Assembly: GCF_006228125.1 (NCBI RefSeq)
Contig: NZ_VDFY01000154.1
Coordinates: 1 to 64,000, forward strand
DNA from: Micromonospora orduensis
GTDB lineage: Bacteria > Actinomycetota > Actinomycetes > Mycobacteriales > Micromonosporaceae
Direction of reading: 5' to 3'
Length of the DNA stretch: 64,000 bases
The position numbers were made by a program, and so were the translations under genes. Shown piece after piece: positions 18,439-34,507 of this stretch (positions within the stretch are counted from its first letter, which is position 1; the number at the start of each line of letters is the position of its first letter). The notes beneath the pieces are model-generated. The model saw only the letters and a program-made list of their open reading frames with translations. It searched no databases and was not told the DNA's origin.

Positions 18439-19135
18439 CGCGCTGCCCGGATCGGTGGCGCTGTGGTGCCCGGTACGCGATGACGACGGAACCGTCGTCG
18501 ACTTTCGTCTCGACCGGTGCGGCCCGGACGCGACCGACGGCGCGGACCGCGACCGAGCCGCCCTCACCGGTCTTCGGTTGCTCGAACTCCACCCGTCGGC
18601 GGCCGACGACGGCATCGTCGCCGGCTGCGCCCGCGCCATGCGCGACGGGCGTCCCTTCCACTGGGGCCCCGGGCAGGTGTGGCGGGCCGGCGGCGCCAGG
18701 CCGACGCGGGCGTTGCTCAGCCTGCGGGCCGTCCCGTTCGGCGACGGGCTGCTCGCCAACTGGCGCTACCACAACGAGCAGCGACGTGCCGCGGACCGGT
18801 CGGCGCGGCTGGAACGGGCCGGTAACGCCGGCTGGGTCGAGTGGGACCTCGCCGGCGGCGGGATCGCCTGGTCGTCGGGCGCCTACCGGGTCCTCGGCCG
18901 GGATCCGGCCGACGGGCCGTTGCCCCTGGGCGCCCTGCATCGCTGGGCCACGTCAACCGACGCGCCCCGGGTCCGGGAGGCGCTGCGGGCTTTGATCGAG
19001 CGGGCCGAGCCGGCCGAGCTGGAGTTCACCGTGCGTCGCCGCGGGGAGGCGTGGCCGGTCCGGCTCGTCGCCGAGCCTGTCGTGGATCGTGACGGCCGGG
19101 TGGCCGAGGTGCACGGCGCGGTGGCCCGCCGCTGA
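17555..19135 (+). CDS. ANTAR-GAF-PAS domain regulator
   Basis: 526 residues from GTG 17555, preceded by TTGGGGAGG. An N-terminal coiled region with an ANTAR domain (HAVVEQATGLLIARLGCSPE, EAFRHLTLISQHSNIRLVEV) suggests RNA-binding antitermination. Residues about 125-280 are a GAF domain (LLGLLEPDGAVRLVGSYGLP, RACLPLRQAGRTVGVAAISW). PAS-like segments fill the rest (AVLDALPGSVALWCPV; GNAGWVEWDLAGGGIAW with AYRVLGRDPADG). It is probably a cytosolic sensor acting with the sigma factor whose frame it overlaps. ANTAR is usually at the C-terminus; here it leads. Confidence 0.85.
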   Translation: MTRRRPAADPPPPLVATVQRLQRELDALRRERRAHAVVEQATGLLIARLGCSPEEAFRHLTLISQHSNIRLVEVAAGLLGAAAPPPPAVPPTSDPEPFRPERYLQPLPPAVQAQISEPSPLTGEAAARYHLARADMATAADANALAEALAEGVRHLGAGSTLLGLLEPDGAVRLVGSYGLPASVASLWQRAPGTVNMALLHAATNGMPLWLTRDEARQRGYDFIGGGAVRACLPLRQAGRTVGVAAISWETHRDLGDAERAYVTALAEAVGRRLSALSRGTADAPAAHWLEAVLDALPGSVALWCPVRDDDGTVVDFRLDRCGPDATDGADRDRAALTGLRLLELHPSAADDGIVAGCARAMRDGRPFHWGPGQVWRAGGARPTRALLSLRAVPFGDGLLANWRYHNEQRRAADRSARLERAGNAGWVEWDLAGGGIAWSSGAYRVLGRDPADGPLPLGALHRWATSTDAPRVREALRALIERAEPAELEFTVRRRGEAWPVRLVAEPVVDRDGRVAEVHGAVARR

Positions 19136-19404
19136 CGTCGCCCGGACTGGTTGGTTCGACCAGGTTCCGTCCCTCGTGGAGCTCGCTCATGCCGACCGCC
19201 CCCGACCTCCCGCGAGACGCGCCGTCCGGCGTGTCTTTCACCTAGCCTCCTAGGAAACCGTCCGGGACGTGACGCACATCTGCCCGGTGGACGAGCCGGC
19301 GGCCGCCCTGCCACCGTCCCGGGACCAGGCGAGAAATGAACCCATCGAGGTTTCCAGCGCGGTCCGGCCGGACACCGCCTCGACACAGGAGGAAAGGGGA
19401 GCGG

Positions 19405-21084
19405 ATGGACCTTCGGACGGCTCCGGGACCGGTCGACGTGGTGGGACCGGTACGCCGATCCGTACGCGGCTCGGCGTTGGCGCGGATGCTGCGCACGACC
19501 GATGCCAAGCAGATCGGCATTCTCTACCTGGCCACCGCGTTCGGCTTCTTCCTGGTGGGTGGGCTGCTGGCGCTGATCATGCGGGCCGAGCTGGCCCGGC
19601 CGGGCCTGCAGATGCTCTCGCCCGAGCAGTACAACCAGCTGTTCACCATGCACGGCACGATCATGCTGTTGCTGTTCGCCACCCCGATCGTGTTCGCCTT
19701 CGCGAACTACCTGGTGCCGTTGCAGATCGGCGCGCCGGATGTGGCGTTTCCCCGGCTCAACGCGTTCGCCTACTGGCTGTACCTGTTCGGGGGCCTGCTC
19801 GTGCTGGGTGGGTTCGTCACCCCCGGCGGCGCGGCCGACTTCGGTTGGACGGCCTACCAGCCGCTCGCCGGGCCGGCGCACTCGCCCGGGACGGGCACGA
19901 ACCTGTGGCTGGTCGGGCTGGTCGTATCCGGTCTGGGCACCATCCTCGGCGCGGTCAACCTGATCACCACCGTGCTGTGTCTGCGGGCGCCCGGCATGAC
20001 CATGTTCCGGATGCCGATCCTCACCTGGAACATCCTGGTCACCGCCATTCTGGTGATTCTGGTGTTCCCGCTGTTGGCCGCCGCGTTGCTCGCCGCCCTC
20101 GCCGACCGGCAGCTCGGCGCGCACGTGTACGACGCGGGCACCGGGGGGCCCATGTTGTGGCAGCACCTGTTCTGGTTCTTCGGGCACCCCGAGGTCTACA
20201 TCGTGGCGCTGCCGTTCTTCGGCATCATCACTGAGATCATTCCGGTCTTCTCCCGCAAGCCTGTCTTCGGCTACCGCGGGCTGATCGCCGCGACGTTGGG
20301 CATCGCGGCGCTGTCGATGAGTGTCTGGGCACACCACATGTTCGCCACCGGCCAGGTGCTGCTGCCGTTCTTCAGCTTCCTGAGTTACCTGATCGCGGTG
20401 CCGACCGGGATCAAGTTCTTCAACTGGATCGGGACGATGTGGAAGGGGCAGCTCACCTTCGAGACGCCGATGCTCTTCGCGCTCGGTTTCCTGGTCACGT
20501 TCCTGCTCGGCGGCCTGACCGGAGTACTGCTGGCGAGCCCGCCGGTCGACTTCCACGTGCACGATTCGTACTTCGTGGTGGCGCACTTCCACTACGTGCT
20601 CTTCGGCACCATCGTGTTCGCTGTCTTCGGGGGCGTCTACTTCTGGTTCCCGAAGATGTTCGGCCGGATGCTCGACGAGCGCCTGGGTAAGGTGCACTTC
20701 TGGCTGACCTTGATCGGTTTCCACACCACGTTCCTGGTGCAGCACTGGTTGGGCAACGAGGGCTTTCCGCGCCGCTACGCCGACTACCTGCCGCAGGACG
20801 GCTTCACGATGCTGAACACGGTCTCCAGCATCGGGTCGTTCGTGCTCGGCGTCTCGATGCTGCCGTTTCTGTGGAACGTCTGGCGCTCCTACCGGTTCGG
20901 CCCGGTGGTGCGCGAGCCCGACCCGTGGGGTCACGGCCTGTCACTGGAGTGGGTGACGTCGTCACCGCCGCCGCTGCGCAACTTCGACCGCCTGCCCCGC
21001 ATCCGCTCCGAGCGACCCGCGTACGACCTCCGCCAGAAACGCGCCGCGGCGGCGCTGCCCGGCCCGCGCTCCGCGACGGACTAA
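19405..21084 (+). CDS. ctaD: Cytochrome c oxidase subunit I
   Basis: 559 residues, 12 transmembrane helices. Haem a ligand His is in [12 protein letters not shown], CuB ligands in [11 protein letters not shown] and WAHHMFATG, haem a3/a ligands in [11 protein letters not shown]. The D-channel Asp ([10 protein letters not shown]) and the K-channel Lys (PTGIKFFNW) are present, so it should be a proton-pumping A-type oxidase subunit reducing O2 to water. The frame is open to 19336, but AGGAGGAAAGGGG before ATG 19405 fixes the start. No subunit II or III gene is next to it, so it may be a second copy that uses partners encoded elsewhere. The complex I-like operon follows 68 bp downstream. Confidence 0.95.
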
Positions 21085-21152: not shown

Positions 21153-21503
21153 ATGGGACGGTACGCGCCGGTGCTGGCCATGCTCGGGCTGGCCGCCGCC
21201 CTCGTGGGCACGCTGTACCTGGCACACCTGCGAACGGCGGTGGCCGCCGCGCCGTCGACCGTCGCCGCGTTCCGGTCCGGGCTGCCGGCCCGCGAGCACG
21301 CGGTCTCCCGGTTCCACGTCCGCTGGTACGCCGTGAGCCTGCTCTTCCTCGCCTTCGACGTGGAGATGCTGTTCATGTACCCGTGGGCGGTGGTGGTGGC
21401 CGACGTCGGCGCGCCCGCAGTCGCGGAGATGTTCGTCTTCCTCGGTCTGCTGATGGCCGGCGTCGTCTACGCCGGGCGGGAGGGCGCGTTGCGGTGGGCC
21501 TGA
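21153..21503 (+). CDS. nuoA: NADH-quinone oxidoreductase subunit A
   Basis: 116 residues, three transmembrane helices. The TM1-TM2 loop and helix carry EHAVSRFHVRWYAVSLLFLA and the acidic FDVEMLFMYPWAV, the NuoA hallmark. NuoA sits at the junction of the membrane arm and the quinone site. The loop Cys common in respiratory NuoA is absent (SGLPARE). GGAAGGAACGGGG precedes the ATG. First gene of a run of seven overlapping membrane-subunit genes; its stop overlaps the next start by 10 nt. Confidence 0.92.
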   Translation: MGRYAPVLAMLGLAAALVGTLYLAHLRTAVAAAPSTVAAFRSGLPAREHAVSRFHVRWYAVSLLFLAFDVEMLFMYPWAVVVADVGAPAVAEMFVFLGLLMAGVVYAGREGALRWA

Positions 21504-22603
21504 CCGGTGAGCTGCTGGCCCGCTGGGCGGCCCGCCGGCCGCACCTGCTGGTTGCCGCCGCCCCCGGCGCCTCCGCCGCCCGCCTGGCCGTGGAGGCCCA
21601 GGCGGACCGGGCCGGGTGGCCGCTCGCGGCTGCTCCGGCCGATGCCGACGTCCTGGTGGTCGCGGGCGATCCAGGACCCGAGCTGTCGGCGGCGATCGAA
21701 CGGGTGTGGGATCAGTTCCCGGGTCCCCGGGCGCGGGTTCGAGTCGTCGATCCGGCCGATGTGGCGTCCGGGCTGGCCGCCGCCGTCGCCCGGCTGACCG
21801 GGACCGCCGGCGAGCGGCCGGACCCGGGACCGGACGGGGCGCAGCTGGATGGCGGGTCGGGGCGGCACGGCCACGGCGACCACGGCGGGATGTCCATGCC
21901 GGGCGGGCTGATGATGGCCGAGCGGGCCGAGGACCGCGACGGGCTGAAACTGGACGCGCTGCACCTGGCGCTCGGTCCGGTGCTGGCGGACTGGCCGGCC
22001 GGTCTGGTCGTGGAGCTTGCGGTGCAGGGTGACGTGGTGCAGTCGGCGAGCGCCCGGGTGCTGCCCCCGGCCGACCCGGCGGCCGTGCGACCGTACCCGG
22101 ACGTGGACCATCCCGGGCTGCGGCGACGCAGGCAGGCCGTGGCCCATCTGGACTCCCTGAGCCGGCTCTGGGCGGTCGTGGGCTGGCCGGCCGGCGCGGC
22201 CACCGCGCGGCGGCTGCGCGACGCGCTTGTCGACGACGTGCCGCTCGCGGCGGCGTACGCCGGTTTCCGGCCGCTCGACCGGCGGGCCCGGCGCTCGCAC
22301 GCGCTGCGCCGCGCCACCGACGGCCTGGGCGTGCTGTCTGCGGTGACGGCGGTCCGCGCGGGCGTGGAGATCCCGGCGACGGCCTGCGGCGACGCGACCG
22401 CCCGGTGGCGGCGCCGGCTGGCCGAGACGGACCGGCTGCTGTCCGGCGGCGAGCCCGACACGTCGCCGGAGCCGGACGCCGTGGCGGTGCGGGAGCTGGC
22501 CGCCCACCTGATGGTCGGGCTCGACCTGGCCGCCGCCCGGGTGGTGCTGGCCTCGTTCGACCCCGACCCGGACGAGCTGGTGGCCGCGAGGATGCGATCG
22601 TGA
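21494..22603 (+). CDS. Cys-poor protein with NuoB-like and NuoD-like segments in a partial complex I operon
   Basis: 369 residues from GTG 21494. Residues about 35-100 read like NuoB: ADADVLVVAGDPG, then AIERVWDQFPGPRARVRVVD, parallel to the NuoB pattern of a VAG segment and VYDQMPEP. The cysteines that hold cluster N2 are missing; the only Cys is in PATACGDATA. A His/Met-rich stretch (RHGHGDHGGMSMPGG) follows at about 117-131. Then DRDGLKLDALHLALGPVLAD and WPAGLVVELAVQGDVVQ resemble part of NuoD/NuoC. The rest is helical and charged, without known motifs. It occupies the nuoB-nuoD position between nuoA and nuoH, and likely caps the membrane arm without electron transfer. Confidence 0.7.
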   Translation: MGLTGELLARWAARRPHLLVAAAPGASAARLAVEAQADRAGWPLAAAPADADVLVVAGDPGPELSAAIERVWDQFPGPRARVRVVDPADVASGLAAAVARLTGTAGERPDPGPDGAQLDGGSGRHGHGDHGGMSMPGGLMMAERAEDRDGLKLDALHLALGPVLADWPAGLVVELAVQGDVVQSASARVLPPADPAAVRPYPDVDHPGLRRRRQAVAHLDSLSRLWAVVGWPAGAATARRLRDALVDDVPLAAAYAGFRPLDRRARRSHALRRATDGLGVLSAVTAVRAGVEIPATACGDATARWRRRLAETDRLLSGGEPDTSPEPDAVAVRELAAHLMVGLDLAAARVVLASFDPDPDELVAARMRS

Positions 22604-23523
22604 CCACCGGTGCGTGGTGGGGCGTCCTGCCGGCCGCCGGTGTGCTGCTCGGCGTGGCGTTGGCCGCCGCGGCGCTGGCGGGCCTGCTCGACCCGGCCGG
22701 TGGTTCGACGCTCGCCCGGCGGGCCGGGCGGCCGGTGTGGGAGACCGCCCGGCTGCTCCGGCAGCGACGGCGTGGCGTGGTGGCGGCGGACACCCTGCTG
22801 TGGCGGCTCGGGTTGGCCGGGCCGCTGGTGGTGGCGCTGCTCATGGTCGTGGTGGTGCCGCTGGGCGACCGGGTGGCGGCCGACCTGCCGGTAGGGGTGG
22901 TCTGGTTCAACGCCATGGACGTGCTGCTCTGGGCGGCGGTGTGGCTCGCCGGCTGGGGAAGCAACAGCGCGTACGGCCTGGTCGGAGGCTACCGCTTCCT
23001 GGCACAGGCGCTCGGCTACGAGCTGCCGCTGATGTTCGCGCTGACCGCCCCGGCGGTGGCGGCCGGCAGCCTGCGGATCGCCGACGTGGTGGCGGCGCAG
23101 CGGGAGCTGTGGTTCGTGGTGTGGATGCCGGTGGCGTTCCTGGTCTTCCTCGGCGCGGTGCTCGCGTTCAGCATGTCCGGGCCGTTCGCCTACCCGGACG
23201 GGCGGGACGTGGCAGGCGGCGTGCTGACCGAGCCGTCCGGCGTGGACCGGCTGATCCTGCTCGCCGGCCGGTACGCGTTGCTGGCGGCGGGCGCGGCGAC
23301 GGCGGTGGCGCTGTTCCTCGGCGGCGGGTCGGGGCCGCTGCTGCCGGCGTGGCTGTGGAGCCTGGTGAAGACGCTGGCCGTGGTGGCCGCCCTGGTGGCG
23401 TTGCGTGGCCGGGTGCCGGTACTACGGGCGGACCGGGTGATGCGTGTGGCCTGGCTGGGGGCGTTGCCCGCCACGCTGGCGCAGGTGCTCGCGGTGGCCA
23501 TGCTCGCGGTGGGGAGGGGTTGA
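22600..23523 (+). CDS. nuoH: NADH-quinone oxidoreductase subunit H
   Basis: 307 residues with about eight membrane helices. Typical NuoH pieces are VGVVWFNAMDVLLWAAVWLA, AGWGSNSAYGLVGGYRFLAQ, and ALGYELPLMFALTAP with the conserved YE. The subunit lines the quinone-binding pocket and links it to the pump modules. GTG 22600 lies in the GTGA stop overlap with the preceding gene, so translation is coupled. The C-terminal part is shorter than in standard NuoH but ends normally before NuoJ. Confidence 0.92.
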   Translation: MTTGAWWGVLPAAGVLLGVALAAAALAGLLDPAGGSTLARRAGRPVWETARLLRQRRRGVVAADTLLWRLGLAGPLVVALLMVVVVPLGDRVAADLPVGVVWFNAMDVLLWAAVWLAGWGSNSAYGLVGGYRFLAQALGYELPLMFALTAPAVAAGSLRIADVVAAQRELWFVVWMPVAFLVFLGAVLAFSMSGPFAYPDGRDVAGGVLTEPSGVDRLILLAGRYALLAAGAATAVALFLGGGSGPLLPAWLWSLVKTLAVVAALVALRGRVPVLRADRVMRVAWLGALPATLAQVLAVAMLAVGRG

Positions 23524-23524
23524 G

Positions 23525-24046
23525 GTGGCTGTCGTCGCGTTCGTCGTGCTGGCGTTCGTCGCCGTGGCGTCCGGCGTGGCCGTGTTCACGGTGGACTCGA
23601 TGGCGCGGGCGACGTTCGCGCTGGCGCTGTCGTTCGTCGCGGTCGGCGGCGAGCTGCTCCTGCTCGACCTGGGCTACCTGGGGGTGGTGACCGTCCTGAT
23701 GATGGTCATGGAGATGGCGCTCATGGCGGTCTTCATGGTCATGTTCATGATGAATCCGGCCGGTCTCATGCCGATGTCGATGCTGCACAACCGCCGGGGC
23801 TCGCTTGCGGTCTCGGTCGGCGTCTTCGTCGTGCTGGCGGCCGGCTCGGTGTTCGTGCCGTGGCCCACCCGTCGCGGCGAGCCGCCCGCCGACCCGACCC
23901 GTGCCCTGGGCGAGGCGATCATGGGCTCGAAGATGCTGGTCATGATGGCGGTCTCCGCGGTGCTGTTCGCCACCATGGTCGCCGCGCTGGTGCTCGCCAC
24001 CGCCCGAGGCCGCTACGACCGCGCGGACTCCCCGGAGCGGCCGTGA
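23525..24046 (+). CDS. nuoJ: NADH-quinone oxidoreductase subunit J
   Basis: 173 residues, five membrane helices, very rich in Met (VTVLMMVMEMALMAVFMVMF, then MNPAGLMPMSML). NuoJ forms part of the proton path at the base of the membrane arm. The frame is open upstream inside nuoH; GTG 23525, 1 nt after the nuoH stop, is the probable start. The tyrosine-rich helix of classical NuoJ is replaced by a Met-rich one. It ends in the GTGA start of nuoK. Confidence 0.88.
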   Translation: MAVVAFVVLAFVAVASGVAVFTVDSMARATFALALSFVAVGGELLLLDLGYLGVVTVLMMVMEMALMAVFMVMFMMNPAGLMPMSMLHNRRGSLAVSVGVFVVLAAGSVFVPWPTRRGEPPADPTRALGEAIMGSKMLVMMAVSAVLFATMVAALVLATARGRYDRADSPERP

Positions 24047-24348
24047 CGCTGCCGATGTTCCTGCTGCTCGCCTCCGCGCTGTTCAGCGTCGGCCTGTACG
24101 GCGCGCTGAGCCAGCAGGCCGTCGTGATGGTGATGATGGGCCTCGAACTCATGATCAACGGGGTGACCGTGGCCGCCGCCGCGCTCTGGTGGTTCCTGGC
24201 CCCGCAGCAGCCCGACGGGCAGGTGCTCGTGCTGGTGGTGATCGCCGCGATGACCGTGGAGATGGCGATGGGCTTCGCGGTCGTGACCCTGTTGTTCCGG
24301 TCGAGCGACGCCGACATGACCGACATGGCGGGGGAGCTGCGGGGATGA
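24043..24348 (+). CDS. nuoK: NADH-quinone oxidoreductase subunit K
   Basis: 101 residues with three membrane helices. The two glutamates needed for proton translocation are present: one in MMGLELMINGVTV, the other in AAMTVEMAMGFAVV followed by TLLFR. This MrpC-like subunit lies between NuoJ and NuoN. Coupled to nuoJ by GTGA and to nuoL by ATGA. Confidence 0.92.
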   Translation: MTLPMFLLLASALFSVGLYGALSQQAVVMVMMGLELMINGVTVAAAALWWFLAPQQPDGQVLVLVVIAAMTVEMAMGFAVVTLLFRSSDADMTDMAGELRG

Positions 24349-26264
24349 ACGCCGCGTTGTGGGCACTGGTCGTCCTCCCGGCCGTCGCCGGGGGGACGCT
24401 GCTGCTGGGCGGGCGGCGGGTCGACCGGGCCGCCCCCGCGCTGGCGCTGACCGTGGCCGCGCTGGTGGCGGCCCTGGCCGTGGCGGTGGCGCTGGGCCGG
24501 CCGGGCGTCGACGCGCCGTTCCTGGCCGGCGGCCGGTGGGGCCTGGCCGTCGACGGGCTCGCCGCCCTCGTCGTACCGACGGTGGCCGCCGTGGCGCTGC
24601 TGGTGCTGGCGTACGCCGCCGCCGAGATCCACCGGGACCGCTCCCGGTTCCACGGGCTGATGCTGGTGTTCCTCGCCGCGGTGCTGCTCACCGCCACCGC
24701 GACGACGCTACCCGTGCTGCTGCTGGGCTGGGAGATCATGGGCGCGATGTCGTACGCGCTGATCGCGTACCACTGGCGGCGCGACGACGCGGTCGCGGCG
24801 GGTGCCACCGCGTTCCTCGCCACCCGCGCCGGCGACCTCGGGCTCTACCTGACCGCGGGTGCCGGACTGGCCGGCGGCACACTCGACCTGACCGGGCTCG
24901 CCGGGCTGCCTCCCGGGTGGCGGGACGTGGCCACCGTAGGCGTGTTGGCCGCCGGCTTCGGCAAGGCGGCCCAGTTGCCGTTCTCGTTCTGGCTGTCGCG
25001 GGCCATGCTCGGCCCGAGCCCGGTCAGCGCGCTGCTGCACTCCGCCGCCATGGTGGCGATGGGCGGCTACCTGCTCGTCCGCCTGCACCCGCTGCTCGTC
25101 GCGACCGGCTGGGCGGTGGACGTGGCCGCCTGGGGCGGAGCGCTCACCGCCCTGGCGCTCGGCGCGGTCGCGCTCGCCCAGACCGACCTGAAGCAACTGC
25201 TGGCCGCCTCCACCAGCGCCCAACTCGGGTACGTGGTGCTGGGCGCCGCCGTCGCCCCGGCCGGCGCCGTCGCGCACCTGATCGGCCACGCGGCCACCAA
25301 GGCGCTGCTGTTCCTCGCCGCCGGGGCGTGGCTGACCGCGCTCGGCACCCGGCGGCTGTCCGCGCTACGCGGCGCGGGCCGCCGCCACCCGCTGGTGGGG
25401 GTCGTGTTCGCGGTGGGCGCCCTGGCGCTGGCCGGGGTGCCGCCGCTGGCGTTGTGGGCCACCAAGGACGTGGTTCTCGCTGGCGCCCGCGAGCGGTCCC
25501 CGGCGCTGTACCTGGTCGGTCTGGCCGGCGCCCTGCTCGCGGCCCTCTACGCCGGCCGGGCGCTCGCCCTGGTCCTGCGTCCGGTCCCGTCCGGGGCCGA
25601 GTCCGGGTACGACACCGAGCGCGACGGCACCCGCGAGGTGACCGCCGGGCAGCGGGTCCCGCTGATGCCGTTGGCGGTAGGGGCGGCCGTGCTCGGCACC
25701 CTGGCGCTGCCGCCGCTGTCCCGGGTGGTGGCCGACGCCGTCGGGTCCGGTCCGGCACCGCCGACAGGCGGCGCTGAGCTGGTCCTGTCCGGCCTGCTCG
25801 CGGTCGCCGGCGTGACGCTGGCGGTCGCCGCGCCGGCCCGGCTGCCGGCCCCGACCTGGGCGCGAACCTGGCTGGGGCTCGACCCGGCGGCCCGGCTGCT
25901 GGTGGTCCGGCCGACCCTGGCGCTGGCCCGGGGGCTGGCCCGGTTCGACGACCGCGTGCTCGACCGGGCCGTGCACGCCGTCCCGCGCGCGGCCCTCGGC
26001 GCGGCCCGGGGGCTCGCCCGGTTCGACGACGCCGGACTCGACCGGGGAGTCACCGCCCTGCCGACAGTGACCCGGCGGGTCGCGGTCGCTCTGGCCCGGG
26101 TGGACGACCACGGGGTGGACGCCCTGGTGCGCCGGCTCGCCCGGGCGGCCCGCCGACTCGGTGTGCTGGCCCGCCGGCCGCAGACCGGCCTGATCCACCA
26201 GTACTACGTCCAGCTGGTCCTCGCGCTGGGTGCCGCCGTGCTGATCCTGCTGCTGGCGAGGTGA
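24345..26264 (+). CDS. nuoL: NADH-quinone oxidoreductase subunit L with a repeated C-terminal insertion
   Basis: 639 residues. A Mrp-type proton channel subunit with LGWEIMGAMSYALIAYHWRR, GFGKAAQLPFSFWLSRAMLG, PSPVSALLHSAAMVAMGGYL and the pump lysines (for example TDLKQLLAASTSAQLGYV and GHAATKALLF). After about residue 520, where NuoL normally has its lateral helix, there are three imperfect repeats built on LARGLARFDDRVLDRAV, ARGLARFDDAGLDRGV and ALARVDDHGVDALV, followed by a final helix (YYVQLVLALGAAVLILL). The repeats likely make an amphipathic brace unlike the standard one. Starts at ATG 24345 in the nuoK stop. Confidence 0.93.
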   Translation: MNAALWALVVLPAVAGGTLLLGGRRVDRAAPALALTVAALVAALAVAVALGRPGVDAPFLAGGRWGLAVDGLAALVVPTVAAVALLVLAYAAAEIHRDRSRFHGLMLVFLAAVLLTATATTLPVLLLGWEIMGAMSYALIAYHWRRDDAVAAGATAFLATRAGDLGLYLTAGAGLAGGTLDLTGLAGLPPGWRDVATVGVLAAGFGKAAQLPFSFWLSRAMLGPSPVSALLHSAAMVAMGGYLLVRLHPLLVATGWAVDVAAWGGALTALALGAVALAQTDLKQLLAASTSAQLGYVVLGAAVAPAGAVAHLIGHAATKALLFLAAGAWLTALGTRRLSALRGAGRRHPLVGVVFAVGALALAGVPPLALWATKDVVLAGARERSPALYLVGLAGALLAALYAGRALALVLRPVPSGAESGYDTERDGTREVTAGQRVPLMPLAVGAAVLGTLALPPLSRVVADAVGSGPAPPTGGAELVLSGLLAVAGVTLAVAAPARLPAPTWARTWLGLDPAARLLVVRPTLALARGLARFDDRVLDRAVHAVPRAALGAARGLARFDDAGLDRGVTALPTVTRRVAVALARVDDHGVDALVRRLARAARRLGVLARRPQTGLIHQYYVQLVLALGAAVLILLLAR

Positions 26265-26267
26265 CCC

Positions 26268-27749
26268 GTGCTGTCCCTGATCGTCTTCACACCGCTGGTG
26301 GCGGCCGTGCTCCTGCTGCCCTGGCGGGGCCTGCCGGCGCGGGCGGTGTCGTGGATCTGGATCGCGGTCACCGGCGTCGAGGTCGCGGCGGTGCTCGCCC
26401 TGTGGTGGGCGTACCCGGGGGAGGGGTTCGCGCACGAGGTGGACCGGCCGTGGATCCCGGGCGCCGGGGCCGGCTACCACGTCGGGGTGGACGGGCTGTC
26501 CCTGCCGCTGCTCGCCCTCACCACTGTCGTCTTCGCCGCCTGCGCGGTGTACTCGCTGCGTCGCCAGCGCCGGCCACGCCAGTTCGCCGCGCTCTTCCTC
26601 GCCCTGCAGACGAGCTGCCTGGGGCTGTTCGTCGCGCTCGACCTGATCCTGTTCTTCGTCTTCTTCGATCTGTCCATCGTGGGCATGTACGCGGTGATCG
26701 CCGGTTGGGGGCACGGCCCGCAGGCCCGCCGTTCGGCGCTGACGTTCTTCCTGTACACGTTCCTCGGCTCGCTGGCGCTGCTGCTGGGCTTCATCGGTCT
26801 CTCCGTCGCCGCCCGACCGCACACCTTCGACATGGTGGCCCTGACCCGGGACCCGCCGACCCAGGGCGTGGCCGGTGCGCTGGTGCTGCTGGCGGTCCTG
26901 CTCGGGCTGGCGATCAAGACGCCGACGTTCCCGTTCCACACCTGGCTGCCTCCGGCGCACACCGACGCCCCGGCCGCCGGTTCGGCCGTGCTGGCCGGGA
27001 TCCTGCTCAAGATGGGCACGTACGGGTTCGTGCGCATCGCCATGCCGATGCTGCCCGACGCCTGGCGGCGCTACGCCTGGGCGGTCGTCGTGGTCGGCGT
27101 GGTGAGCGTGCTCTACGGGGCGCTGGTGGCGCTCGCCCAGACCAACTTCAAGCGGATGGTCGCGTACACCTCGGTCAACCACATGGGGTACGTGGTGCTG
27201 GCTGTCGGCGCGGCCGGCCTGGTCGCCGGCTCGGACGCGCAGGCCCGCGCGGTCGCGGTGACCGGCGCGGTCACCCAGATGGTCAGCCACGGGCTCATCA
27301 CGTCCGCGTTGTTCCTGCTCGCTGGCGTCCTGTACGACCGTGGCGGCACCTACCAGATGGACGCCTACGGCGGGTTGGCCGGTGACACACCCCGGTTCGC
27401 CGCGCTGACCGCGGTGGCGGCGTTCGCCAGCCTCGGGCTGCCCGGCTTCTCCGGGTTCATCGCCGAATTCCAGATCTTCGCCGGCAGTCTGGGCTCCGCG
27501 CCGGTGGCGGTGGCGTTCGCGCTGCCCGGCGTCCTCATCACCGCGGCCCTGTTCCTGTGGGCGCTGCACCGGATCTTCCTCGGTCCGGCCCGGCACCGCC
27601 TGTCCGCGACGGCCGACGTGACCGCCGCCGAGATCGCGGCGGTGCTGCCGCTGCTGGCGCTCGCGCTGCTCCTCGGCGTCTTCCCCCGACTGTTGCTGGA
27701 CGTGGTGGAACCCGCCGCCCGGGCGGTCACCGACCTGGTGGCCCGGTGA
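26268..27749 (+). CDS. nuoM: NADH-quinone oxidoreductase subunit M
   Basis: 493 residues, 13-14 membrane helices, from GTG 26268. Typical NuoM sequence: LLALTTVVFAACAVYSLRRQ, IKTPTFPFHTWLPPAHTDAP, GSAVLAGILLKMGTYGFVRI and ALAQTNFKRMVAYTSVNHMG (broken-helix lysine). It is one of the three antiporter-like proton channels of complex I. It follows nuoL by 3 nt and ends in the GTGA start of nuoN. Confidence 0.94.
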   Translation: MLSLIVFTPLVAAVLLLPWRGLPARAVSWIWIAVTGVEVAAVLALWWAYPGEGFAHEVDRPWIPGAGAGYHVGVDGLSLPLLALTTVVFAACAVYSLRRQRRPRQFAALFLALQTSCLGLFVALDLILFFVFFDLSIVGMYAVIAGWGHGPQARRSALTFFLYTFLGSLALLLGFIGLSVAARPHTFDMVALTRDPPTQGVAGALVLLAVLLGLAIKTPTFPFHTWLPPAHTDAPAAGSAVLAGILLKMGTYGFVRIAMPMLPDAWRRYAWAVVVVGVVSVLYGALVALAQTNFKRMVAYTSVNHMGYVVLAVGAAGLVAGSDAQARAVAVTGAVTQMVSHGLITSALFLLAGVLYDRGGTYQMDAYGGLAGDTPRFAALTAVAAFASLGLPGFSGFIAEFQIFAGSLGSAPVAVAFALPGVLITAALFLWALHRIFLGPARHRLSATADVTAAEIAAVLPLLALALLLGVFPRLLLDVVEPAARAVTDLVAR

Positions 27750-29155
27750 ACGAGCGTCCGCTCGCCCTGTTGCCGGAGTTGCTCCTGCTCGTCGGCGCGG
27801 TCACCACGCTGCTCACCGGGGCGTTCCTGCCCCGGGGTCGACAGTGGGTGGCCCGGCTGATCGCCGTCGGGGCGCTGCTCGCGGCCGTCCTCGCCGCGCT
27901 GCCCGCCGTGGGCGAGCGGTCCACCGTGTACGCGCACAGCTACGCCCTCGATCCGGCGACGACGGCGGCCCGGTTGCTGATCCCGCTGGCCGGGCTGCTG
28001 GTGGTCGGGATCGCCGCCGGCCGGGTTGCCGGCAACCGGCGGGAGACCGAGTTCTACGTGCTGACGCTGCTCGCCGTGCTCGGCGCGGTGCTGCTCGCCG
28101 GGGCGTCGGACCTGCTGCTGCTGGCCGTGGCGTACCTGCTGTCGTCGGTGCCGCTGGCCGGGCTGGCCGGCTGGGGGCGGGACCGGCGAGGTGCCGAGGC
28201 GGCGCTCAAGGTCTACCTGATGGGCGCGCTGGCCGGGGTCGGCCTGCTGGCCGGCGCGGCGCTGCTGATCGCGCTCGGCGGCGGGGCGAGCGACTACGAC
28301 CGGCTGGCCGCCGGGCTGGCCGGGGCGCCGAGCCCCGCCGTCGCCGTCGGGGTGGTCGGGGTGCTGGCCGGCCTGCTGTTCAAGATCGGCGCGGTGCCCG
28401 GCCACTTCTGGGTACCCGACGCGGTGCAGGGCGCCTCGATCCCGGCCGGCGCGCTGCTGACCACCGTGCCGAAGCTCGGTGGCCTGCTGGCGGCGTACCG
28501 GCTGTTCGCCGTGGCGGTGCCCGCCGACGTGGTCGACTGGCCGCTGCTGGTCGCGGTGCTCGCGGCGGTCACCATGACGCTTGGCAACTTCGCCGCGTTC
28601 GGCCAGGCGGACCCGCGCCGGCTGCTCGCGTACTCCACCGTGGCGCAGGTGGGTTACCTGCTGATGGCCGTCGCGGTCGCCGGCCGCGCGGAGCGCGCTC
28701 TGCCGGCCCTGCTGGTCTACCTCGCCGGGTACGCGGTGACGAACCTGGGGGCGTTCGCGGTGCTGGCCGCCGAGCCGCACGACACCCTCGACGACTACCT
28801 CGGGCTGGCCCGCCGCCGGCCCTGGCTCGCCGCGGCGCTGGCGATCTGCCTGCTGGGGCTCGTGGGCACACCGCCCACGGCGGTCTTCGCCGGCAAGCTG
28901 ACGGTGTTCACGGTCGCCTGGGACGGCGGGCTGGCGTGGCTGGTCGTCGTCGCCGCGGTGAACACCGTGGCCAGTCTCTTCTACTACCTGCGCTGGCTGG
29001 TGCCCGCGTACACCCCGGTGGGTCGGTGCCCGGCTGCCCGCGACCGTGACCGGCCGCTGGCGGCGGTGAGTGTGGCGGCGGCCGGCGCGGCGCTGTTCGG
29101 CGCGGCGGTGACCGTGCCGCTGTACCCGCTGGTGGCGCAGACCCTCCAGCGTTGA
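27746..29155 (+). CDS. nuoN: NADH-quinone oxidoreductase subunit N
   Basis: 469 residues, about 14 membrane helices, from GTG 27746. Signature stretches include EAALKVYLMGALAGVGLLAG, LLFKIGAVPGHFWVPDAVQG, ASIPAGALLTTVPKLGGLLA and AFGQADPRRLLAYSTVAQVG. It is the third antiporter-like proton channel and closes the membrane-arm operon. No genes for NuoC, D, E, F, G or I are found before or after it in the window. Confidence 0.93.
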   Translation: MNERPLALLPELLLLVGAVTTLLTGAFLPRGRQWVARLIAVGALLAAVLAALPAVGERSTVYAHSYALDPATTAARLLIPLAGLLVVGIAAGRVAGNRRETEFYVLTLLAVLGAVLLAGASDLLLLAVAYLLSSVPLAGLAGWGRDRRGAEAALKVYLMGALAGVGLLAGAALLIALGGGASDYDRLAAGLAGAPSPAVAVGVVGVLAGLLFKIGAVPGHFWVPDAVQGASIPAGALLTTVPKLGGLLAAYRLFAVAVPADVVDWPLLVAVLAAVTMTLGNFAAFGQADPRRLLAYSTVAQVGYLLMAVAVAGRAERALPALLVYLAGYAVTNLGAFAVLAAEPHDTLDDYLGLARRRPWLAAALAICLLGLVGTPPTAVFAGKLTVFTVAWDGGLAWLVVVAAVNTVASLFYYLRWLVPAYTPVGRCPAARDRDRPLAAVSVAAAGAALFGAAVTVPLYPLVAQTLQR

Positions 29156-29551: not shown

Positions 29552-29663
29552 CCGCCGCCGTGTCCGTCCTGGTCCGTCGTGTCCCGTACGGCGGGTGAGC
29601 GCTGCCGTGCGGCGGCGGGAGCGGGAGGAGGACGGGACGAACCCCCGGGACGAGGAGGACGAC

Positions 29664-31430
29664 GTGCAGGAGATCGTGGGCGAGAGCCTGGCCCGACGCC
29701 TGGTGGAGTGGGGGGTCGACACCGTGTTCGGCCTGCCCGGCGACGGCATCAACGGCCTGATGGAGGGCTTCCGCCGGCAGCGGGAGAAGTTGCGGTTCGT
29801 GCTGGTGCACCACGAGGAGGCGGCGGCGTTCATGGCCACCGGCTACGCCAAGGCCACCGGCCGACTGGGGGTCTGCTGCGCCACCTCCGGCCCCGGAGCG
29901 ATTCATCTGCTCAACGGGCTCTACGACGCGAAGCTCGATCACGTGCCGGTGTTGGCGCTCACCGGAATGCAGGAGACCTCGGTGCTGGGCTCGCACTACC
30001 AGCAGGAGGTGCACACCACCCAGCTGTACCAGGACGTGGCGTCGTACAACCTCATGGTCACCAATCCGCAGCAGATGCCGGCGGTGGTGGACCTGGCGAT
30101 CCGCGACGCGTTGAGCAAGCGGACGGTGGCGCACCTGACGTTTCCCAACGACGTCCAGGTCGCGGCGGCCGACGAGGACCCGTACCGGCACGTCAGCCCG
30201 GGCAAGCCGCCGATGAGCGCGGCGGTGGTGTCGTATCCGCAGCTGCCGGCGGACCCGCGGGAGCTGGCGAAGGCGGCCGAGGTGCTCAGGGCCGGCCGGA
30301 AGGTCGCCATGCTGGTGGGTGTCGGTGCGCGTGGCGCTCGCGCGGAGGTCCTCGCGGTGGCCGAGGCACTGGCCAGCCCCATCGTCAAGACGCTGCCGGG
30401 CAAGCTGGTGGTGCCCGATGACCACCCGCTGACCACGGGCGGGCTCGGCCTGCTCGGCACCGCGCCGAGCGAGGAGCTGATGGAGGAGTGCGACACCCTG
30501 CTGATGGTGGGCACCTCCTTCCCGTACGCGAAGTACCTGCCCGGCCCGGGGCAGGCGAAGGTGGTGCAGATCGACGTCGATCCGAGCCTGATCGGGATGC
30601 GCCTGCCGGTCGACGCTCCCATCTGCGCGGACGCGCGCCTGGCGCTGCGGGACCTGCTGCCGATGCTCGACCACGGACCGGACCGCTCGTTCCTGGAGAA
30701 GTACCAGCGCAAGATGGGCGACTGGCGCGCGGAGATGACCAGCCTGGTGGACCCGCGGCGGTCGCCGATCGCGCCGCAGTACCTGATGGGCTGCATCGAC
30801 GAGGCCGCCGCCGCCGATGCCATCCTGACCTGCGACTCCGGCACGATCGCCACCTGGTCGGCCCGGCACTGGACGATTCGTGGCGATCGGGAGTTCTACC
30901 TGTCGGGCAACCTGGCGACGATGGCGCCCGGCCTGCCGTACGCGATCGCCATGCAGCACGCCTATCCGGGCCGGCAGGTGATCGCGTTCGTCGGCGACGG
31001 CGGCTTCGCGATGCTGATGGCCGAGTTCCTCACCGCGGTCCGGCACGACCTGCCGATCAAGGTGGTGATCAACAACAACAACTCGTACGGGCAGATCCTG
31101 TGGGAGCAGATCATCCTCGGCTACCCCGAGTACGCGGTGCGGCACCGCCAGCCGGAGGCGGACTTCTCGACGTGGGCGCGCGGCTGCGGCGCGTTCGGGG
31201 TCAAGGTGACCGACGCGAAGGCGCTGCCGGGCGCGATCCGGGAAGCGCTCGCGCACCCGGGCCCGGCGCTGGTGGACTGCGACGTCAACCCCAACGAACC
31301 GCCGATGCCCGGAAAGATCAAGTATGACCAGGCCAAGCACTTCACCGAGGCGTTCCTCCGCGGCCAACCGCACAAGGTCGCCACCCTCGCCACCGTCGCC
31401 CGCGACAAGTTCAACGAGCTGCGTCCATGA
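29664..31430 (+). CDS. ThDP-dependent enzyme, pyruvate oxidase/pyruvate:quinone oxidoreductase-like
   Basis: 588 residues from GTG 29664, preceded by CGAGGAGGAC (GTG 29595 is possible). Three domains of the acetolactate synthase/PoxB superfamily: the Pyr domain with catalytic Glu in VLVHHEEAAAFMATGYAKAT; a middle domain; and the PP domain with the ThDP motif GDGGFAMLMAEFLTAVRHD ending in NNNNSYGQI. Related enzymes decarboxylate pyruvate and pass electrons to quinone or O2. The start of the operon is marked by the promoter-like site at 29527, and ATGA coupling joins it to the FAD/Fe-S protein. Substrate not certain: acetolactate synthase, oxalyl-CoA decarboxylase and sulphoacetaldehyde enzymes share the fold. 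Confidence 0.85.
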   Translation: MQEIVGESLARRLVEWGVDTVFGLPGDGINGLMEGFRRQREKLRFVLVHHEEAAAFMATGYAKATGRLGVCCATSGPGAIHLLNGLYDAKLDHVPVLALTGMQETSVLGSHYQQEVHTTQLYQDVASYNLMVTNPQQMPAVVDLAIRDALSKRTVAHLTFPNDVQVAAADEDPYRHVSPGKPPMSAAVVSYPQLPADPRELAKAAEVLRAGRKVAMLVGVGARGARAEVLAVAEALASPIVKTLPGKLVVPDDHPLTTGGLGLLGTAPSEELMEECDTLLMVGTSFPYAKYLPGPGQAKVVQIDVDPSLIGMRLPVDAPICADARLALRDLLPMLDHGPDRSFLEKYQRKMGDWRAEMTSLVDPRRSPIAPQYLMGCIDEAAAADAILTCDSGTIATWSARHWTIRGDREFYLSGNLATMAPGLPYAIAMQHAYPGRQVIAFVGDGGFAMLMAEFLTAVRHDLPIKVVINNNNSYGQILWEQIILGYPEYAVRHRQPEADFSTWARGCGAFGVKVTDAKALPGAIREALAHPGPALVDCDVNPNEPPMPGKIKYDQAKHFTEAFLRGQPHKVATLATVARDKFNELRP

Positions 31431-34400
31431 ACGACGTATTCCTGCCCGAACCCGTCCTGCGCCCGCCCGAACCGATCGACGACCTCGACCTGAGCGCCCT
31501 CGCCGCCGACTTGCGCGACGAGGTCGACGGGGAGGTCCGCTTCGACGCCGGCTCCCGCGCCGCGTACTCCACCGACGCCTCCAACTACCGGCAGGTGCCG
31601 CTCGGGGTCGTGGTGCCCCGCACCGTGGAGGCGGCGGTCGCCGCCGTCGCGGTGTGCCGCCGCCACCAGGCGCCGCTGACCTCGCGCGGCGGCGGCACCA
31701 GCCTCGCCGGTGAGTGCACCAACACCGCCGTGGTGCTGGACTGGTCGAAGTACTGCCACCGGCTGATCGAGGTCGACGAACAGACGCGGACCTGCCTGGT
31801 CGAGCCGGGCATCGTGCTCGACGAACTCAACGCCGAGCTCAAGCCGACCGGGCTGGAGTACGGACCGCGTCCGGCCACCCACAACCACTGCACGCTGGGC
31901 GGCATGCTCGGCAACAACTCCTGCGGTGCCACCGCCCAGCGCACCGGCAAGGTGGTCGACAACGTCGTGGAGCTGGAGGTGCTGCTCTACGACGGCACCC
32001 GCATGTGGGTGGGGGAGACCACCGACGACGAGTACGACCGGATCCAGCGCGACGGTGGCCGCAAGGCGCACATCTACCGGCAGTTGCGGGCGCTGCGCGA
32101 CGAGTACCTGGCCGACATCCGCACCCGCTATCCGGACATCCCGCGTCGGGTCTCCGGCTACAACCTGGACAGCCTGCTGCCCGAGAAGACCTTCCACGTC
32201 GCCCAGGCCCTGGTCGGCTCCGAAGGGACACTGGTCACCATCCTGCGGGCGCGACTGAAGCTGGTGCCGATCGTCAAGGCACAGGCGATGGTCTTCCTCA
32301 GCTACCCGGACATCGCCTCCGCCGGAGACGACGTACCGCGGATCCTGGAACACCAGCCGATCGCGCTCGAAGGCATCGACGACAAGCTGGTCAGCTTCGA
32401 GCGGCGCAAGAGCCTGCACCCACACGCCCTGCGGGAGCTACCTCCCGGCGGCGCCTGGCTGATGGTCCAGCTCGGGGGCGAGACGCCGCAGGAGGCGCGG
32501 GCGGCGGCCGAGCGTCTCATCGCCTCGGTCCGTCGGGACGGCGGGCCGCGGGCGCACGAGTTCGCCGACCCCGCCGACGAGAAACGGATGTGGGGAGTCC
32601 GGGACTCCGCGCTCGGCGCCACCGCGCACGTGCCGGACGCGGACAACACCTGGCCCGGTTGGGAGGACTCCGCCGTCGCTCCGCGGCGGCTCGGCGACTA
32701 CCTGCGTGACCTGCAGCGACTCTACCGGGAGTACGGCTACGAGCAGGCGTCCCTGTATGGACACTTCGGGCAGGGGTGCGTGCACACCCGCATTCCGTTC
32801 CAGCTGCGTACCGCCGACGGGATCAGGGATTTCCGGTCCTTCATCGAGCGCGCCGCCGATCTGGTGGTCTCCTACGGCGGCTCGTTCTCCGGGGAACACG
32901 GCGACGGGCAGGCGCGGGGCGAACTGCTGCCCAAGATGTACGGCGATCGGCTGACCAGGGCGTTCGGCCAGTTCAAGGCGATCTTCGACCCGGACGATCG
33001 GATGAACCCGGGCAAGGTGGTGCCGCCGTACCGGCTGGACAGCCACCTGCGGCTCGGCGCCGACTACGACCACGGCGCGGTCGAGACCGCCTTCGCCTAC
33101 CCGGACGACGGCGGCAGCTTCGGCAACGCGGTGCTGCGCTGCGTGGGGGTCGGCAAGTGCCGCCGCCACGAGGGGGGAGTGATGTGCCCCTCCTACATGG
33201 TCACCCGCGAGGAGGAGCACTCCACCCGGGGCCGGTCCCGGCTGCTGTTCGAGATGCTCGACGGCACCGCCCGCGGCGGCACGATCGGCGACGGCTGGCG
33301 CTCGGAGGCGGTGCGGGACGCCCTCGACCTCTGCCTGGCCTGCAAGGGGTGCAAGGCCGACTGCCCGGTGAACGTGGACATGGCCACCTACAAGGCCGAG
33401 TTCCTGCACCACCACTACGCCCGCCGCCTGCGCCCCCGCGCCCACTACTCGATGGGCTGGCTGCCGCTGGTGGCCACCGTCGCCGCCCGGCTGCCACGTA
33501 CGGTCAACGCGCTGGCTCAGGCCCCCGGGCTGAACCGGCTCGCGAAGGCCGTCGGTGGCATCGACAAGCGCCGTGACATCCCGGCGTTCGCCCCAGAGTC
33601 GTTCCAACACTGGTTCGCCCACCGCACCCCCAGCGGCGACGGCTCGCGCGGGGAGGTGCTGCTCTGGCCGGACACGTTCACCAACCACTTCCACCCGGGG
33701 GTGGCGCGCGCCGCGGTGGAGGTCCTGGAGACCGCCGGCTGGCGGGTACGAGTGCCGGAACAGTCGGTGTGCTGCGGGCTGACCTGGATCTCCACGGGGC
33801 AACTCGGCGTCGCCAAGCGGGTGCTGCGTCGCAGCACCGACGTGCTGCGCCCGCACCTGCGCGCCGGCACGCGGATCGTGGGGTTGGAGCCGAGCTGCAC
33901 GGCGGTGTTCCGCAGCGACGCCCACGAGCTGTTCCCGGCCGACGACGACGTGACCCGGCTGCGGGAGCAGGCCGTCACCCTCGCCGAGCTGTTGCACGAC
34001 CACAGCCCGGGTTGGCAGCCGCCGCGGGTCGAGGCACACGCCCTGATCCAGACCCACTGCCACCACCACGCGATTCTCGGCACCGCCGCCGACCAGGCGC
34101 TGCTGTCCGCCGCCGGCGTGGACGCGGAGTTCCTGGATTCGGGCTGCTGCGGTCTGGCGGGAAACTTCGGCTTCGAGGAGGGGCACTTCGAGGTATCGGA
34201 GGCGTGCGCGGAGCGGGTGCTGCTGCCCGCCGTCCGGGACGCTGCCGAGACCGACGTGATCCTCGCCGACGGCTTCAGCTGCCGCACCCAGGTCGAGCAG
34301 AGCGCCTCCGGCGGGCGGTCGGCCATCCACCTGGCCGAACTGCTGCGCGCGGGCCTGCACGACGACACCGTGCCGCGCCGGCCGGAGCGGAACTGGGGTG

Positions 34401-34507
34401 ACCGGCCACACCCGCCATCGGTGCTCGCCCGCTGGACGGCGGCCGGGGTGGTCGGCGTCGCCGCGCTCGCCGGGCTGGGCACGCTGCTGCGGCGGTGGAC
34501 ACGGTGA
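31427..34507 (+). CDS. Fused FAD-binding and Fe-S oxidoreductase (D-lactate/glycolate dehydrogenase type) with C-terminal membrane anchor
   Basis: 1026 residues. Residues about 50-270 are an FAD-binding PCMH domain (PLTSRGGGTSLAGECTNTAV; THNHCTLGGMLGNNSCGAT); the FAD-oxidase C domain follows to about 540 (GHFGQGCVHTRIPF, GGSFSGEHGDGQARGELLPK). Two cluster-binding sequences come next (VGKCRRHEGGVMCPSY and CLACKGCKADCPVNVDM), then two CCG domains (SVCCGLTWISTG, SGCCGLAGNFGFEEGHFEVS). A final hydrophobic helix (AAGVVGVAALAGLGTLL) should anchor it. It probably oxidises a 2-hydroxy acid and feeds quinone. ATGA overlap with the ThDP enzyme and GTGA with the next gene place it in one operon. Confidence 0.9.
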   Translation: MNDVFLPEPVLRPPEPIDDLDLSALAADLRDEVDGEVRFDAGSRAAYSTDASNYRQVPLGVVVPRTVEAAVAAVAVCRRHQAPLTSRGGGTSLAGECTNTAVVLDWSKYCHRLIEVDEQTRTCLVEPGIVLDELNAELKPTGLEYGPRPATHNHCTLGGMLGNNSCGATAQRTGKVVDNVVELEVLLYDGTRMWVGETTDDEYDRIQRDGGRKAHIYRQLRALRDEYLADIRTRYPDIPRRVSGYNLDSLLPEKTFHVAQALVGSEGTLVTILRARLKLVPIVKAQAMVFLSYPDIASAGDDVPRILEHQPIALEGIDDKLVSFERRKSLHPHALRELPPGGAWLMVQLGGETPQEARAAAERLIASVRRDGGPRAHEFADPADEKRMWGVRDSALGATAHVPDADNTWPGWEDSAVAPRRLGDYLRDLQRLYREYGYEQASLYGHFGQGCVHTRIPFQLRTADGIRDFRSFIERAADLVVSYGGSFSGEHGDGQARGELLPKMYGDRLTRAFGQFKAIFDPDDRMNPGKVVPPYRLDSHLRLGADYDHGAVETAFAYPDDGGSFGNAVLRCVGVGKCRRHEGGVMCPSYMVTREEEHSTRGRSRLLFEMLDGTARGGTIGDGWRSEAVRDALDLCLACKGCKADCPVNVDMATYKAEFLHHHYARRLRPRAHYSMGWLPLVATVAARLPRTVNALAQAPGLNRLAKAVGGIDKRRDIPAFAPESFQHWFAHRTPSGDGSRGEVLLWPDTFTNHFHPGVARAAVEVLETAGWRVRVPEQSVCCGLTWISTGQLGVAKRVLRRSTDVLRPHLRAGTRIVGLEPSCTAVFRSDAHELFPADDDVTRLREQAVTLAELLHDHSPGWQPPRVEAHALIQTHCHHHAILGTAADQALLSAAGVDAEFLDSGCCGLAGNFGFEEGHFEVSEACAERVLLPAVRDAAETDVILADGFSCRTQVEQSASGGRSAIHLAELLRAGLHDDTVPRRPERNWGDRPHPPSVLARWTAAGVVGVAALAGLGTLLRRWTR

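Follow-up and report, generated by a model that had tools for sequence, protein, structure and literature searches.

A redox-dead complex I derivative in Micromonospora orduensis and its likely role in soft-metal handling

In a stretch of 64,000 nucleotides from the Micromonospora orduensis genome (NCBI RefSeq assembly GCF_006228125.1, contig NZ_VDFY01000154.1, positions 1 to 64,000; hereafter the window), we found an operon of eight genes, nuoA-X-nuoHJKLMN, at positions 21153-29155. Through sequence analysis, AlphaFold2 modelling and comparison with PDB structures, the second gene product, protein X, was revealed to be a fused relic of the complex I subunits NuoB and NuoD without their cofactor residues. 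The operon belongs to a clade of its own among complex I derivatives, whose members lack redox chemistry and likely act on a soft metal, most probably Cu(I) and perhaps Ag(I). This metal link is the family's chief trait. With a little more belief than doubt, we propose that the complex uses the proton motive force to move Cu(I)/Ag(I).

The operon and its fused second gene product

All eight genes are co-directional and their ends adjoin or overlap, in agreement with the tight packing reported in a prediction made earlier from the letters of the window (the original prediction). The features of the operon are:

21153..21503, + strand, NuoA homologue (Pfam PF00507, E 2e-25)
21494..22603, + strand, X, fused redox-dead NuoB-NuoD with a His/Met-rich linker (sequence, AlphaFold2, fold comparison)
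21494..21808, + strand, NuoB-like domain of X, residues 1-105, without conserved Cys
21809..21916, + strand, His/Met-rich linker of X, residues 106-141, candidate metal-binding region
21917..22585, + strand, NuoD-like domain of X, residues 142-364, GPxHPxxHG replaced
22600..23523, + strand, NuoH homologue, altered quinone/E-channel residues (NCBIfam NuoH, E 1e-37, below cut-off)
23525..24046, + strand, NuoJ homologue with methionine signature (Pfam PF00499)
23699..23788, + strand, Met-rich stretch of NuoJ, residues 59-88 (M59, M60, M64, M67, M71, M75, M76, M84, M86, H88)
24043..24348, + strand, NuoK homologue (Pfam PF00420)
24345..26264, + strand, NuoL homologue, channel residues retained (Pfam PF00361)
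26268..27749, + strand, NuoM homologue, channel residues retained, E. coli E144 being Asp (TIGR01972, above cut-off)
27746..29155, + strand, NuoN homologue, E. coli E133 changed to Leu, lysines retained (Pfam PF00361)

The NuoA, J, K, L, M and N proteins matched Pfam families. No iron-sulphur (Fe-S) family was matched in Pfam by A, X, J, K, L, M or N, nor in NCBIfam among the matches listed for all eight proteins (the best 25 for L, M and N), and NuoE, F and G of the NADH module were absent from the eight genes and the scanned neighbours; an arm without any working redox subunit was correctly predicted. Cysteine was missing from A, H, J, K and L, and was found once in X and twice in each of M and N. 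The operon was under purifying selection, with ratios of nonsynonymous to synonymous substitution (dN/dS) of 0.20-0.49 against up to four relatives, the comparison with one of them (L044) covering A and X only. Decay, which would have undone the original prediction, was ruled out by these ratios, and at the sequence level the operon was confirmed as genuine, intact and selected against amino-acid change.

The earlier description of X as one Cys-poor protein agrees with its single Cys but is too weak. The AlphaFold2 model of X (44 sequences) had a mean predicted local distance difference test score (pLDDT) of 88.5. Residues 142-364 aligned with mycobacterial complex I at its chain D, taken here to be NuoD, with Z 19.5 and a root mean square deviation (rmsd) of 2.7 over 212 residues at 15% identity, and the best Foldseek match of this domain was a complex I chain (E 1.7e-4). 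Residues 1-105, modelled alone with pLDDT 92.6, gave Z 10.2 and rmsd 2.9 over 105 residues in the best structural alignment and E 1.2e-4 in the best Foldseek match; all 50 of the 50 listed best structure matches were chains of complex I or of the related NDH, MBH or MBS, presumably NuoB homologues judging by chain letter. NCBIfam also gave a NuoB match below its cut-off (E 2e-4) at residues 33-81. An unrelated origin of X was ruled out because its folds match NuoB and NuoD, and X as an ordinary NuoB was ruled out by the missing Cys: no NuoB Cys was conserved, the best Cys column reaching 18/43. The quinone-site motif of NuoD, GPxHPxxHG, was replaced in 98/98 X proteins and present in E. coli and in the ordinary NuoD of the same genome. 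Two redox subunits are thus present in the operon, in dead form.

The linker between the two domains was modelled with low confidence (pLDDT below 50 at residues 114-117 and 119-133). At the linker region, X proteins from plasmids of Thioclava, Nitratireductor and Rubrobacter contained five, two and two stretches, respectively, of heavy-metal-binding domain (PF19335, with a best E of 1e-75), and these same proteins also matched NuoD with E 7e-13 to 2e-10. Halomonas X matched NuoD (E 3e-7) without such domains, and no Pfam family was matched by X of Acuticoccus or M. avium. The heavy-metal-binding motif CPMHP..CPxC was found in one to five copies in nine of the 18 plasmid X proteins examined.

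Proton channels and invariant methionines

Relatives were collected in a scan of named genomes, which gave 281 stretches; the best 80 were kept and are called named loci. The alignments were read at the functional positions of E. coli NuoL, NuoM, NuoN, NuoA, NuoH and NuoK. In E. coli numbering, NuoL E144, D178, K229, H254 and K399 and NuoM K234, K265 and E407 were retained in all aligned family rows, NuoM E144 was mostly Asp, and the NuoN lysines were retained except K217 in M. avium. NuoK E35 (E. coli E36) was retained in 85/85 family members and NuoA E71 (E. coli E81) in 86/86; NuoA D69 (E. coli D79) was found in 83/86, with Glu at this position in Acuticoccus, Halomonas and Roseivivax. In NuoH, several quinone or E-channel residues were changed. 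Judged by alignment, the operon encodes a membrane arm whose putative Lys/Glu proton channels are mostly retained.

The membrane subunits carry invariant or nearly invariant Met residues which ordinary subunits do not have. NuoJ Met at 26, 59, 60, 64, 67, 71, 75, 76, 84 and 86 occurred in 93/93 family members (79 from named loci and 14 from plasmids) versus 0/31 ordinary NuoJ (28 from actinobacterial genomes of the same collection and three from Proteobacteria), and NuoJ H88 in 93/93 versus 0/20. NuoK M29, M31, M70 and M74 were present in 82-85 of 85 members and in none of 31 ordinary NuoK; NuoA M72, M75 and H55 in 86/86 versus 0/4, together with M93 in 86/86; and NuoH M145 in 82/86 versus 0/5, M176 being family-specific as well. 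The window copy retains the invariant Met residues and the His/Met linker.

Distribution and neighbouring genes

X was present in nine of 121 genomes of the host family, the window's own genome counted, and the named loci included Streptomyces, Actinomadura, Nonomuraea, Nocardiopsis, Pseudonocardia, Arthrobacter, Micromonospora and others. A survey of gene order across actinobacterial genomes, proposed with the original prediction, found the order A-X-H-J-K-L-M-N on one strand for the genes found in 80/80 named loci, and the complete set in 71. Six incomplete loci (L044, L069, L076, L085, L088 and L120) are cut off where a contig ends or close to that point, L100 had no operon start and L045 gave no separate NuoA match. 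In Streptomyces sp. 8K308 (L089), NuoM and NuoN were not found after NuoL though the contig continues, possibly a shortened operon. A figure of 119/396 genomes from a phylum-wide scan was not used, as most of its matches were short and lay at profile positions of about 41-82; we take these for true NuoB, and chance similarity of His-rich sequence may account for some of the longer matches.

Among the 46 proteins of one tree, 36 were NuoM of this type. They came from both Actinomycetota and Proteobacteria and formed one group separate from ordinary NuoM with support 100/97, with a warning of the tool about long outgroup branches. The proteobacterial breadth of the family comes from plasmid records. 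The operon also exists on plasmids of M. avium and M. intracellulare, those of M. avium coming from sputum. Plasmid matches in Komagataeibacter and Klebsiella were ordinary full-type nuo operons and served only as ordinary controls. Further candidate matches fell in Azospirillum and in haloarchaea. Two plasmid copies were broken by a transposase gene after a shortened X, of IS3 type in Pseudarthrobacter (L162 11438-13258) and of ISL3 type in Martelella (L209 9962-12245).

Metal-resistance genes are frequent neighbours of the operon. The flanks at the 80 named loci had medians of about 9.5 kb upstream and 3.3 kb downstream. Unselected clustering of their open reading frames (ORFs) placed heavy-metal P-type ATPases (22 loci) and DUF305 proteins (20 loci) as the top two, followed by major facilitator superfamily transporters (17), a sortilin-like lipoprotein (12) and ATP-binding cassette transporter ATPases (12), and lower by heavy-metal-associated (HMA) chaperones (10), NlpC/P60 (9) and BlaI/CopY-type repressors (9). 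In a targeted census of P-type ATPase, CsoR, multicopper oxidase, DUF305 and HMA genes, a marker was found in the flanks of 35/80 named loci versus 0/27 control stretches drawn from 27 of the same genomes (Fisher P 3e-6, for loci that are not independent, since related strains recur and some loci share one genome). Nine DUF305 genes were found in the flanks of 40 loci versus 0.20 expected from whole genomes.

From about 35 plasmid records with X, 25 were read. Annotated copper or heavy-metal genes were nearby in 18 of them (L201 counted on DUF305 alone) and not in six (L161, L162, L169, L200, L202 and L198, the last with only BlaI and M56 genes as neighbours); the annotation of the remaining one, L208, consisted almost entirely of hypothetical proteins. 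The combination of CPC plus MxxSS, which we take as the motif of Cu/Ag pumps, was found in 21/29 neighbouring P-type ATPases, some of the others being cut at contig ends. The metal neighbours are mostly copper-type. Upstream of the operon, a DUF6629 gene recurred in four Rhodobacterales plasmids (L202, L203, L204 and L206).

Around the window copy, an aa3-type cytochrome oxidase subunit I gene (ctaD, lone and actinobacterial) lies immediately upstream (19336-21084), and a pyruvate-oxidase-like thiamine pyrophosphate (TPP) enzyme gene overlapping that of a flavin adenine dinucleotide (FAD)/Fe-S dehydrogenase lies downstream (29595-34507), so the oxidase and dehydrogenase named in the original prediction are both there. 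Relatives of both downstream genes adjoin the operon in Pseudosporangium (L046), and ctaD is found about 6 kb upstream of the operon on the Rhodococcus plasmid pRB29 (L198 1522-3288). A similarity search at the 80 named loci, whose median flank is only about 3.3 kb on the downstream side, recovered CtaD in none, the TPP enzyme in three and the FAD/Fe-S protein in four, and the three were rejected as conserved partners. Further upstream in the window, a Na+/H+ exchanger gene (PF00999, 14872-16086) is located 5 kb from the operon, and a sigma-70-type factor ORF (regions 2, 3 and 4) followed by an ANTAR/GAF regulator at 16303-19135 suggests a stress-response region.

The 6.9 Mb genome containing the window has a complete ordinary nuo operon on contig C269, where Pfam identified B to J and similarity identified A, K, L, M and N; this answers the question, raised with the original prediction, of a full set in the same genome. 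Further complex I-like genes were found, with H, J, K and L on C137 and M and N on C35; together these may form a single partial nuo operon divided between two contigs. A separate NuoD-like gene exists on C279 (L039 4365-5903; PF00346, E 9e-72), and a similarity search of the 15 kb taken with it gave no membrane subunit of complex I.

Proposed function and alternative explanations

The loss of redox ligands and quinone motif, the mostly kept channels and the gained metal features make proton-driven soft-metal transport the simplest reading. X, at the position of the quinone module, would take metal from the cytoplasm; a Met-lined path through NuoA, NuoJ, NuoK and NuoH would carry it across the membrane; and protons moving inward through the retained NuoL, NuoM and NuoN channels would pay for its export. 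This would be complex I working in reverse, with metal movement replacing quinone reduction. The Met residues would bind the metal themselves, and the resistance-gene setting is the reason for proposing export; for this direction, as for the proton coupling, we speak of inference. Whether the family forms a new class of metal transporter, driven by proton motive force and using this NuoA/J/K/H path fed by a metal-binding NuoB-NuoD relic, is a point on which we lean slightly to the doubtful side. One carrier of the operon is a strain from copper-rich mine fluids according to the available part of PMC6676996, and co-expression with copper genes is reported for Marinobacter (PMC8233155); we count both in favour of soft-metal transport.

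Several observations weigh against proton-driven metal transport. A core metal marker was lacking at 45/80 named loci, and the census markers were picked after the plasmid neighbours had been seen. No census marker was found within the 64 kb window, none flanks the operon in L044-L048, the relatives nearest to it, and the three CsoR-type regulators of the genome are all on other contigs; as copper genes are not nearby, the metal reading of the window copy derives from the family, and we suppose that this copy would act likewise. Twelve of the 98 X proteins have fewer than six His and no heavy-metal-binding motif, so the metal-binding linker is not universal. The proton channels are not untouched either, since NuoN E133 is lost and NuoK E73 (E. 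coli E72) is present in 78/85 family members versus 31/31 ordinary NuoK. The predicted-structure evidence covers X alone, not the complex, and Met within a membrane helix may serve packing.

Among known systems, the operon resembles complex I (NDH-1) in NuoA, H, J, K, L, M and N, in the NuoB and NuoD folds of X and in most proton-channel residues, but it lacks Fe-S clusters, NADH module and quinone motif, and has Met-rich A, J and K and a predicted metal-binding linker. Antiporter-like membrane subunits are common to Mrp antiporters and energy-converting hydrogenases, which move ions without NADH. Mrp is a set of MrpA-G without NuoH, B or D, whereas the operon has NuoH, NuoA and NuoB/D relics. 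The antiporter-like device is the closest of the three ideas put forward in the original prediction, though not as an Mrp set. Energy-converting hydrogenases retain a large subunit with a NiFe site and a small subunit with Fe-S clusters, whereas X has one Cys and no Fe-S match. The Cu(I) transporters CusA and Ctr use Met relays, and CPMHP domains occur in CusB, all with folds unrelated to complex I; the proposed Met-lined path and the CPMHP domains of some X proteins are reminiscent of them.

The partial-operon arrangement (2012) and one copper link in Marinobacter (2021) were already known. A seven-gene 'second partial NDH-1 operon' of Salinispora was presented as marine adaptation by Penn and Jensen 2012 (PMC3314556), the same seven nuo genes were reported in PMC6002675 and PMC4018334, and PMC6676996 gave the order nuoA-hypothetical-nuoHJKLMN with rhizosphere and mine strains as carriers. 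The available parts of this literature interpret the genes as marine or osmotic adaptation, leave X hypothetical and give neither a copper link nor a Met signature. The Salinispora genes (nuoAHJKLMN) have the same order and very probably belong to the same family, a judgement made without the Salinispora sequences. In Marinobacter atlanticus, a nuoADHJKL cassette likewise lies inside a copper-resistance cluster and is co-expressed with it (Eddie et al. 2021, PMC8233155); compared by description, as far as the accessible text goes, it differs in being known from one organism, without nuoMN, and possibly driven by copper redox. PMC12361115 has partial Nuo sets on plasmids, and the word copper is missing from its main text in the portion available. 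What X is, the Met signature and how widely the family is spread were not found in literature on partial nuo operons or on nuo and copper, a search mostly outside subscription journals.

Copper redox as an energy source, proposed for Marinobacter in the accessible text of Eddie et al. 2021 (PMC8233155), would mean that the arm pumps protons outward, with Cu(I) oxidation at X replacing that of NADH. The copper neighbourhood, the retained channel residues, the metal domains in some X and, from the same partial source, expression with copper genes in Marinobacter are consistent with it. However, no electron acceptor is evident where the quinone motif is replaced and the NuoB Cys are gone, and the His/Met and CPMHP sites would resemble binding sites rather than redox centres; we consider this explanation improbable. 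For the same loss of Fe-S cysteines and NuoD quinone motif, a pump with another electron donor, as put forward in the original prediction, is unlikely. A proton pump borrowing a neighbouring dehydrogenase or oxidase, also suggested there, would suit the ctaD, TPP and FAD/Fe-S genes around the window copy and the ctaD of the Rhodococcus plasmid, but their recurrence at 0, 3 and 4 of 80 loci does not support it, and we regard it as very improbable.

The marine adaptation proposed by Penn and Jensen 2012 would here mean a Na+/H+ or K+/H+ antiporter that acts in response to salt or pH. Such an antiporter would fit the membrane subunits related to Mrp, the marine carriers (PMC3314556 and PMC6676996, as available), the Na+/H+ exchanger gene in the window, and potassium-channel genes close upstream of three plasmid copies (L209 8129-8545; L162 9972-10850; L158 11503-11907). 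It leaves the Met signature, the heavy-metal-binding domains and the copper genes unexplained, and carriers are also found among rhizosphere and mine strains (the same part of PMC6676996) and on the M. avium plasmids from sputum. The window genome moreover has two other antiporter-type genes on C258. We take these two to be Mrp, and consider a salt or pH antiporter to have a small chance of being right. It is less likely still that the complex is a metal sensor or valve, in which metal at X gates proton flow and stays on its side: a channel arm bearing an X with metal-binding features would fit, but the Met residues that are invariant in NuoJ and NuoK, both of them membrane subunits, would be unexplained.

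Returning to proton-driven transport of Cu(I)/Ag(I), the original prediction was right about a redox-dead membrane arm beside a complete nuo operon, and missed the metal link. The NuoJ Met signature offers annotators a simple sequence test and is a clear target for mutagenesis. If the proposal is true, complex I machinery has been reused with the redox input replaced by metal, and this would be, to our knowledge, the first relative of complex I in which proton flow is coupled with metal transport instead of electron transfer. It would bear on how the quinone site is coupled to distant proton channels, as the channels persist here without quinone chemistry. Genes now described as 'marine adaptation' would be seen in a new light, and a widespread, sometimes plasmid-borne copper-handling system would be added, including that on M. 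avium and M. intracellulare plasmids.

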